NCBI GenBank assembly: GCA_009711805.1 | Contig: VEMX01000021.1 | Location: 1-64,000, forward strand | Source of the DNA: Balneolaceae bacterium | GTDB taxonomy: Bacteria > Bacteroidota > Rhodothermia > Balneolales > Balneolaceae | Direction: 5' to 3' | DNA length: 64,000 nt | Shown: piece by piece, positions 17,969-37,816 of the stretch | Numbering within the stretch: position 1 is the stretch's first letter | Layout: each line of letters begins with the position of its first letter | Program-made: the position numbers and the translations under genes | Notes under the pieces: model-generated | Database searches by the model: none | Seen by the model: the letters and a program-made list of their open reading frames with translations, nothing else | What the model was told of the DNA's origin: nothing

Positions 17969-18670
17969 TCATCCATTTTCAATTTGCTTCACAAAACCTG
18001 CAAAGCCTTTCCTCTTAAGTTTAGATAGTTCCTTTTTGGCTTTATTGGCATCCGTATATCGCCCATAATACACCCGGAATATTTTTTCTGATCCGACCTG
18101 AATGGATTCAACCCGGCTGTTTTTAATTTTGGAGGATTGTTCTTTGGCTTGATTTACTTTTTTATAGGAGCCCAGTTGAATTGTATAGTTGGGAACCTTA
18201 AGATCGGTGATGCGGGAATTTTTGAGATCACCATTTAACAGGTACAGCTTAATATTAGCGGTGCCCGGACCTATCACCCCAAGCTTTCGGGCTGCCCCCC
18301 TCGATAAATCCAGTATGCGATCTTTGGCGTAGGGACCCCGGTCATTAATACGAACCTGCAGGCTCTTCCCATTATCCAGGTTCTCAACAAGCACAATAGA
18401 GTTGAAGGGCAGGGTTCGGTGGGCTGCAGTGATCCCGTCCATGTCATAAATTTCTCCATTGGCAGTTAGCTTGCCGTGGAAATTGGGGCCATACCAGCTG
18501 CTGACGCCCGTTTCAATAAGCATGCCTTCCGATTTTGATGCGTCGGTATAGACTTCTTCTCCGGAAGGAGTATCTGAAGTGGATTTGGTTGCTTTTCGGG
18601 CAATACCACAGGAAGACAGCAGCAAACCTACAAGCAGGCTGCTTAATATGAAGATGAATCTTTTTTGCAT
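17969..18670 (-). CDS. rlpA: Septal ring lytic transglycosylase RlpA family lipoprotein
   Basis: A 233-residue lipoprotein with signal MQKRFIFILSSLLVGLLLSSC. The double-psi beta-barrel is GVSSWYGPNFHGKLTANGEIYDMDGITAAHRTLPFNSIVLVENLDNGKSLQVRINDRGPY, with the catalytic Asp/His-type surface and final D of INDRGPY. A C-terminal SPOR domain (about residues 165-233, with YTIQLGSYKKVNQAKE and VYYGRYTDANKAKKEL) binds denuded peptidoglycan at septa. It acts in the periplasm at cell division. Gene order with crtI is probably incidental. Confidence 0.93.
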   Translation of the reverse strand: MQKRFIFILSSLLVGLLLSSCGIARKATKSTSDTPSGEEVYTDASKSEGMLIETGVSSWYGPNFHGKLTANGEIYDMDGITAAHRTLPFNSIVLVENLDNGKSLQVRINDRGPYAKDRILDLSRGAARKLGVIGPGTANIKLYLLNGDLKNSRITDLKVPNYTIQLGSYKKVNQAKEQSSKIKNSRVESIQVGSEKIFRVYYGRYTDANKAKKELSKLKRKGFAGFVKQIENG

Positions 18671-18778: not shown

Positions 18779-18872
18779 AGCCGGTGACTGGATTTCCCCG
18801 TAGGGACGCCTTCGGTGGAACCAGCGACTTATTCTTTACGAGAGAATTACTCTACCACTGAGTTACACCGGC
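18779..18872 (-). tRNA. tRNA-Thr(CGT) with a 22-nt hairpin inserted in the T-loop
   Basis: On the minus strand the cloverleaf is complete: acceptor GCCGGTG/CACCGGC, D-stem ACTC/GAGT, anticodon stem ATTCT/AGAAT around loop CTCGTAA (anticodon CGT), variable AAGTC, T-stem GCTGG/CCAGT, discriminator T. All stems pair. The T-loop reads TTC...AAAT, a normal TTCAAAT split by 22 extra bases (18796-18817 on the plus strand). Removing them gives a standard 72-nt tRNA. The insert folds as CCGAAGG-CGTC-CCTACGG with one mismatch and can extend through TTCC/GGAA. It may be a functional tRNA with an extra arm, or a recent pseudogene. Confidence 0.8.
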
Positions 18873-19005: not shown

Positions 19006-19599
19006 ATGTCTGCAACGCTAACCTTGATTGCCGCCAATGCGGTGGTATCTCTTCTGGCTTTATATGCCATACCCGGTTTATTCGATAAAGCTATGCTAAA
19101 ACCTTACCGGGTAGTTCGGGAAAATAGTTGGTACGAACTCATAAGCTCTGGTTTTATACATGCTGGTATGGGGCATCTGTTTTTGAATATGTTTACGCTG
19201 TTTTTCTTTGGGCCTGTATTGGAAAATACGATCGGTCAAACACAGTTTATAATGCTTTACTTTTCCGGCTTGTTGATTTCAAGTGTTCCTTCAGTTATTC
19301 GACATAAAGAAAACCCCGATTTTGCTACAGTAGGGGCTTCCGGAGCAGTTGAAAGCGTATTGTTTGGGTTTATTTTACTCTTTCCTTTTGAACCTATTTA
19401 TATCATGTTGGTTCCCATTGGAATTCCCTCGTTTGTTTTTGGGGCCTGTTTTCTGGGGTATAGTTTTTATGCCAGTAAGAAAGAAGGGAAGATTAATCAT
19501 GAAGCTCATATAGCCGGGGCCATCTGGGGTGTTTTATACCTGCTTGTATTTGTTCCCAACACCATTGATCATATACTGACTGTTTTGGGGCTTATTTAG
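19006..19599 (+). CDS. Rhomboid family intramembrane serine protease
   Basis: A 197-residue, six-segment membrane protein. The catalytic GASGAV is at residues 110-115 with Ser112, and the partner His168 is in NHEAHIAGAIWG. The oxyanion-loop motif GFIHAGMGHLFLNM (His57, Asn61) is present. All active-site parts are there, so it should cleave transmembrane helices. Loops are short, as in GlpG-less bacterial rhomboids. It is a single gene flanked by the tRNA-Thr and an opposing barrel gene; substrates are unknown. Confidence 0.93.
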   Translation: MSATLTLIAANAVVSLLALYAIPGLFDKAMLKPYRVVRENSWYELISSGFIHAGMGHLFLNMFTLFFFGPVLENTIGQTQFIMLYFSGLLISSVPSVIRHKENPDFATVGASGAVESVLFGFILLFPFEPIYIMLVPIGIPSFVFGACFLGYSFYASKKEGKINHEAHIAGAIWGVLYLLVFVPNTIDHILTVLGLI

Positions 19600-26914: not shown

Positions 26915-27058
26915 AATCAGGGCTTTTTAGCTGTTTGATAAGTATTTGATTACCCTGGTAAAGTAAGAAACTAAAGCAATAAAACTGAAGCTGAAGAGGT
27001 GCGATTACACGCCGGTAAATTATGAAAGGGGCAGATCATAAGAAGTCCCTTCTGCCAT

Positions 27059-27077
27059 GGGCATCCCTTCGGGAGGC
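27059..27077. repeat. REP-like hairpin repeat, copy
   Basis: GGGCATCCCTTCGGGAGGC. Read on the minus strand it shares TCCCGAAGGGATGC with the repeat at 37798 and is related to the insert in the tRNA-Thr T-loop. It lies in the nnr-proS gap. Confidence 0.5.
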
Positions 27078-37745: not shown

Positions 37746-37797
37746 TGGTATAAGCGTTTCGTTTACATAATGTGTATTTTCTTCGCCTTAATAATCT

Positions 37798-37816
37798 CCC
37801 GAAGGGATGCTTTCGG
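37798..37816. repeat. REP-like hairpin repeat, copy
   Basis: CCCGAAGGGATGCTTTCGG, upstream of aspS. It differs from the core of the tRNA-Thr T-loop insert (CCCGTAGGGACGCCTTCGG on the plus strand) at three of 19 positions. Confidence 0.55.

Follow-up and report, generated by a model that had tools for sequence, protein, structure and literature searches.

The window, the 64,000-nucleotide stretch of Balneolaceae DNA analysed here, contains a tRNA-Thr(CGT) gene with a 22-nt hairpin in its T-loop. That this insert belongs to a family of tRNA-targeting elements associated with GIY-YIG nuclease genes is strongly supported, and the family, apparently undescribed so far, is widespread. The window gene is best regarded as the probable leftover, or a nuclease-resistant allele, of such an element, with the insert as the diagnostic end of the element and a tRNA that probably no longer works.

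The interrupted gene and its locus

The gene, its parts, its conserved neighbours and two related hairpins are located as follows:

18779..18872, minus strand: tRNA-Thr(CGT) with interrupted T-loop, 94 nt including the discriminator, identified by its stems, Rfam, its fold and synteny with the uninterrupted genes of relatives
18796..18817, minus strand: the 22-nt insert CACCGAAGGCGTCCCTACGGGG, which separates C56 from A57 in the T-loop and belongs to the double mini-hairpin family
18818..18825, minus strand: 5' strand of the T-stem, GCTGG, followed by TTC (positions 49-56)
18787..18795, minus strand: remainder of the T-loop, AAAT, followed by the 3' strand of the T-stem, CCAGT (positions 57-65)
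18838..18840, minus strand: the anticodon CGT
17969..18670, minus strand: ORF that we take, from recognition of its sequence, to encode an RlpA/SPOR-like lipoprotein; conserved neighbour of Thr(CGT)
19006..19599, plus strand: ORF that presumably, again from recognition of its sequence, encodes a rhomboid-like protease; conserved neighbour on the opposite side of Thr(CGT)
27055..27073, plus strand: related hairpin, intergenic and outside tRNAs
37797..37816, minus strand: related hairpin, intergenic and outside tRNAs

The initial annotation of this DNA had described a tRNA-Thr(CGT) with every stem paired and a hairpin inserted after the TTC of the T-loop; its coordinates and the position of the insert (18817-18796) proved exact. 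The T-loop TTCAAAT is divided into TTC (54-56) and AAAT (57-60), and pairing is complete in the acceptor (7/7), D (4/4), anticodon (5/5) and T stems (5/5, one G-U). The minimum free energy fold is the cloverleaf with an extended TTCC/GGAA hairpin (-34.7 kcal/mol; z = -3.38), and none of 200 shuffled sequences folded equally well. Rfam called a tRNA at 35.2 bits but skipped the T-arm, and ARAGORN missed the gene. The T-loop in the gene is 29 nt long, as against the 7 nt of a functional tRNA-Thr. No terminator was found downstream of the gene, whereas some relatives do have one, and aligning the sequence upstream of Thr genes showed no conserved promoter. Neither a GIY-YIG gene nor a second tRNA copy was seen near 18779-18872. 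We interpret the window gene as derived from an element, not as an element itself.

Uninterrupted Thr(CGT) genes are present in about 30 relatives from the same family. The possibility had been raised that relatives carry the uninterrupted gene elsewhere; it lies instead at the same syntenic locus, between the same rhomboid-like and RlpA-like neighbours, and the window gene is thus the interrupted orthologue. The 10-25-45 triple is A-U-A in the window gene and G-C-G in 29 of 29 relatives. This linked change speaks for a structural constraint on the gene at some time, which may have been before or after the insertion. A search for another tRNA-Thr(CGT), suggested at the outset, detected none in the 4.08-Mb genome to which the window belongs, examined by pattern and by region; the assembly (99 contigs) is not perfectly complete, as Ile(GAT) and Ala(TGC), which are usually located in rRNA operons, are absent among the detected tRNAs. 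The Thr(GGT) and Thr(TGT) genes of this genome are both on contig 60. Thr(CGT) appears to be dispensable, since there are whole genera of the family, with nearly complete genomes, in which it was not detected, and a U34-containing Thr(TGT), able to read the codon ACG, is present. Loss of function of the window gene is likely.

A scan of 394 genomes across the phylum for whole class-I tRNAs with the hairpin returned the window gene alone; two further genomes matched through partial copies within tandem arrays. Another solitary blocked Thr(CGT) with intact stems was found in a Cyclobacteriaceae genome, in which no other copy was found. Furthermore, three genomes of another genus (L205, L206 and L210) have degenerate partial 5' copies of the tRNA directly upstream of an intact Thr(CGT), and an Ignavibacteriae genome (L165) has a blocked displaced copy downstream of it. 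Together, these 5' copies and the blocked copy suggest that Thr(CGT) may be a recurrent target.

The hairpin family and its association with GIY-YIG genes

The insert had been called repeat-like, with resemblance to intergenic repeats at 27059 and 37798. Both observations hold: the window contains four matches to the hairpin with up to three mismatches, compared with 0.04 expected, and at the same threshold the hairpin core has 31 matches genome-wide, compared with zero for a reversed control. About half of these 31 fall outside tRNAs. In contigs 30, 19, 4, 9, 21 and 22 the hairpin core terminates a longer interspersed repeat, with CTCCTCGCGTG or a similar sequence immediately preceding it.

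The T-arm and insert of the window gene are 91% identical to blocked 3' ends of tRNA-Pro on contig 18. At that locus (contig 18:34934-35560) five units of about 111 bp stand in tandem behind an intact tRNA-Pro(GGG). Every unit has a blocked T-arm and the 3' strand of the acceptor, and all but the last have the same terminator. Inspection of the hairpin matches in their context, combined with a search of the flanks of all tRNAs, revealed that in this genome the 3' ends of about ten tRNA genes and of the tmRNA gene recur as displaced copies that have a hairpin at the T-loop position seen in the window gene. Such blocked copies lie about 60-400 bp downstream of intact Pro(GGG) (five in tandem), Phe, Asn, Ser(GCT) (two), Ser(TGA), Thr(TGT), both Glu genes, Pro(TGG) and tmRNA (two). 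The tmRNA copies (contig 31:16984-17573) are in tandem and have the T-loop hairpin in the opposite orientation. The displaced copies of Leu(GAG), Leu(CAG), Gly(GCC) and Ser(GGA) are disrupted in other ways. Of the 49 displaced 3'-end copies scanned without assuming a hairpin, in a set of loci partly retrieved by the hairpin pattern and with the window's own genome as its unbiased core, 47 had a disrupted T-loop; the other two have a hairpin elsewhere in the copy. Hairpins were also observed in the D-loops of a partial Ser(TGA) copy (contig 40:7637) and an Arg(TCT) copy (contig 9), both upstream of intact genes.

The inserts follow the pattern TNCC-nAA-GGNA-T-NCC-nnn-GGN, between TTC and RAA. 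Among 36 distinct hairpins, and counting only the free pairs because the CC/GG parts were set by the search pattern, the free pair is complementary in 36/36 for the first mini-hairpin and 35/36 for the second, far above shuffled sequences. The pairs of an alternative long hairpin are below chance in the same 36. Although one long hairpin is favoured by thermodynamics, for RNA as well as DNA, the covariation supports two mini-hairpins as the probable structure. The window copy agrees with the family in its position and its second mini-hairpin. In its first mini-hairpin the outer pair is compensated, and one family pair is lost through an A-C mismatch (CACC/GGCG).

An ORF for a GIY-YIG nuclease often separates the blocked copy from its intact tRNA; many copies have no ORF. 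Within the genome of the window, the ORF is part of the element at the Asn, Ser(TGA), Leu(GAG), Gly(GCC) and Met loci, and the same was seen at many GTDB loci. Six of the 12 GIY-YIG matches of this genome lie less than 700 bp downstream of a tRNA, for which we calculate a chance probability of the order of 1e-10 (binomial, 36 tRNAs). The encoded proteins are 80-120 aa long, with UPF0213 proteins and SLX1 as the best matches among solved structures. Two further arrangements were observed in this genome: at contig 80:2066-3015 a tRNA-Met(CAT) is followed by two tandem GIY-YIG units with a strongly degenerate displaced 3' end, and at contig 3:126445-127209 a tandem pair of GIY-YIG genes lies away from any tRNA match.

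The Ser(TGA) site of one genus of the family is empty in seven genomes and filled in one. At the filled site the order is tRNA, a GIY-YIG ORF that starts at once, a blocked 3' end, and then the native flank, which is resumed exactly. This comparison of empty and filled sites identifies the filled state as an insertion. The strict hairpin pattern was found in 7 of 92 family genomes (zero for the reversed control), and all matches outside the genome of the window are displaced 3' ends of Ser, Asn, Pro or Glu tRNAs. GTDB yielded 37 stretches, from Balneolaceae, Ignavibacteria/Melioribacter, Cyclobacteriaceae, Bacteroidales and records labelled Bacteroidetes or Chlorobiota, all of them within the Bacteroidota/Ignavibacteria/Balneolales group. 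Where enough of the contig is available, the sequence immediately upstream usually holds an intact tRNA of matching identity, and it is normally the 3' end of this upstream tRNA that the blocked arm duplicates. A second layout, in which a whole blocked tRNA-Glu(CTC) is followed by GIY-YIG and then by an intact Glu(CTC), occurs at two loci (L183 and L187), which shows that whole tRNAs can be blocked. One contig (G215 contig 60, L251) carries a tandem array of four units, each about 215 bp long and containing a tRNA remnant in which the anticodon arm is replaced and the T-loop bears the hairpin.

Phage-borne mobility was considered and rejected: the strict pattern matched one IMG/VR contig, in an intergenic position not clearly a tRNA copy, and searches for the element nuclease among phages and plasmids returned Listeria records only. 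No description of elements of this type in bacterial chromosomes was found in the open-access literature.

A proposed mechanism and competing explanations

SegB, a GIY-YIG homing enzyme of phage T6, cuts inside tRNA genes and prefers the motif RAWTSGAAC, the disruption of which reduces cutting (PMC13096335). The reverse complement, GTTCSAWTY, fits the tRNA T-loop GTTCGAATC. In our reading, which is absent from the part of the SegB text available to us (PMC13096335), the motif would correspond to the tRNA T-loop on the other strand. The hairpin splits exactly the motif matching GTTCSAWTY. We therefore propose, by analogy, that the nucleases of the elements may cut T-loops and that the hairpin may spare the displaced copy. 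In such a mechanism, the GIY-YIG nuclease would cut the conserved T-loop (GTTC^RAAT), repair would copy the element into the cut tRNA gene, and the hairpin, by splitting the cutting motif, would make the displaced copy safe from recutting. One complete tRNA is kept at the site of an element, and the other copy, usually only a displaced 3' end, carries the hairpin. Both layouts could result from a single crossover between a unit with a blocked T-arm and a normal T-arm, on either side of the hairpin. The intact tRNA could be spared if the native flank is also recognised, as only the empty allele combines an intact T-loop with the native flank; this would fit the commoner layout.

As to how the window gene came to stand alone, we infer as most likely that an element was lost by recombination between the two T-arms or that the gene was converted from a blocked T-arm. 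Cells would tolerate the defect, since ACG can be read by Thr(TGT). Several observations weigh against this explanation. Element loss is not directly seen at the window, where both the GIY-YIG gene and a second Thr copy are lacking; no stem is broken, and the bases of the 10-25-45 triple have changed together. T-loop cutting by the short GIY-YIG proteins is an analogy with SegB, which is only a distant relative of them. Moreover, since intact T-loops persist within this genome, protection would have to depend on the flanks as well, and hairpins of the same type occur outside tRNAs too.

A hairpin in the T-loop had been said to have no standard explanation, for which the element family, with the same T-loop site in many tRNAs, can now be substituted. 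Two explanations had been offered, a very recent insertion or a functional tRNA with an extra arm. The intact stems on which they rested stand, but the T-loop site shared by many tRNA copies and tmRNA had been missed. A functional five-armed tRNA, with the hairpin directed away from the elbow and ACG decoding retained, is unlikely. It would agree with the perfect stems and the cloverleaf as the optimal fold, with the three linked changes that preserve the 10-25-45 triple, and with the intact stems of the second solitary case in another lineage. The insert, though, falls between C56 and R57, a region that in normal tRNAs makes the contact between the D-loop and the T-loop. The lost family pair of the window hairpin, the lack of a detected terminator and the absence of Thr(CGT) from many relatives also count against such a tRNA, as does the fact that almost all other sites with the hairpin are redundant copies. 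Removal of the hairpin from the RNA like an intron, with religation of the halves, would match the precise position and would restore the normal T-loop TTCAAAT, but we regard it as very improbable. The first reading of this DNA had already set the insert apart from group I introns, and rightly so: 22 nt is far below group I/II size, the catalytic core being about 100 nt or more, and Rfam matched no intron. An archaeal-type intron was rejected on size, on Rfam and on the fold, which has no bulge-helix-bulge. Known introns of bacterial tRNAs likewise interrupt a tRNA gene, but they are self-splicing group I/II introns of hundreds of nt next to the anticodon (PMC4033280). In addition, most hairpin copies are in fragments incapable of being tRNAs.

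An ordinary REP-type palindrome, mobilised by a RAYT/IS200-like transposase and landing by chance in a tRNA gene, would account for the intergenic hairpin copies, and the genome has two Y1 transposase (Y1_Tnp) matches above the cut-off, located on contigs 36 and 29; one of the two contains an internal stop. REP/RAYT systems with CGTC-tagged palindromes also have many short palindromic copies, some of them intergenic (PMC3733652). The elements described here differ from them in the fixed TTC^RAA site, the covariation of tandem mini-hairpins and the link with GIY-YIG. One T-loop position is used in a dozen tRNA 3' ends and in tmRNA, in several lineages and beside GIY-YIG genes, and this position is too constant for random REP insertion, which was rejected. 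REPs are recognised by a GTAG/CGTC tag and an extragenic position; the T-loop inserts lie within tRNA sequences and have no GTAG tag, with CGTC in the window copy and CATC or similar in others. We therefore consider a REP origin improbable. Alternatively, hairpins might enter the single-stranded loops of any DNA stem-loop and be collected by unneeded tRNA copies. The D-loop hairpins of the Ser(TGA) and Arg(TCT) copies would be in line with this, and so would the hairpins that some displaced copies have in their anticodon or T-stem regions. Relaxed selection alone should, however, leave many copies unhit, whereas the T-loop was hit in 47 of the 49, and in the only filled Ser(TGA) genome hairpin and GIY-YIG are present together, which counts against later collection. 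This makes the collection of hairpins quite improbable, and we retain the leftover of a tRNA-targeting element as the preferred explanation.

Relation to known systems and implications

Tyrosine-integrase islands rebuild the 3' end of the tRNA that they target and leave a displaced 3'-end copy at the far end. The elements described here resemble them in keeping the tRNA intact with a displaced 3'-end copy at the far end, but are only about 60-600 bp long, have no integrase between the copies, and have the displaced copy blocked by a hairpin. The double-hairpin elements of Allomyces belong to the mitochondrial hairpin elements. These are also small hairpins in structural-RNA genes and spacers (PMC2800124); the elements found here differ in their occurrence in bacterial chromosomes, at one exact tRNA site and linked with a nuclease gene. 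The free-standing GIY-YIG homing endonucleases of T-even phages, such as SegB, are similar in having the nuclease gene beside tRNA genes, in cutting within tRNA genes at a motif that would match the T-loop, and in the tandem copies that arise around the SegB gene (PMC13096335, PMC2988022). Those systems belong to phage genomes, and a hairpin-bearing copy of a tRNA 3' end is not described in the available part of the SegB text. The elements of this study, unlike SegB, occupy bacterial chromosomes and encode short proteins closest to UPF0213 and SLX1.

Tentatively, the elements may represent a minimal class of homing elements in the Bacteroidota/Ignavibacteria/Balneolales group, with the universal T-loop as target and the double mini-hairpin as protection tag. 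Solitary tagged tRNAs would in that case be selected, nuclease-resistant alleles, not mere debris, a possibility that we put forward with considerable reserve.

Genes tagged by the hairpin are missed by tRNA finders. The family indicates a recurrent mobile element, present over several lineages and aimed at the T-loop, which is among the most conserved DNA sequences in life. It offers a possible reading of the SegB motif, accounts for duplications of tRNA 3' ends in many genomes, and suggests a route by which tRNA genes may be lost.
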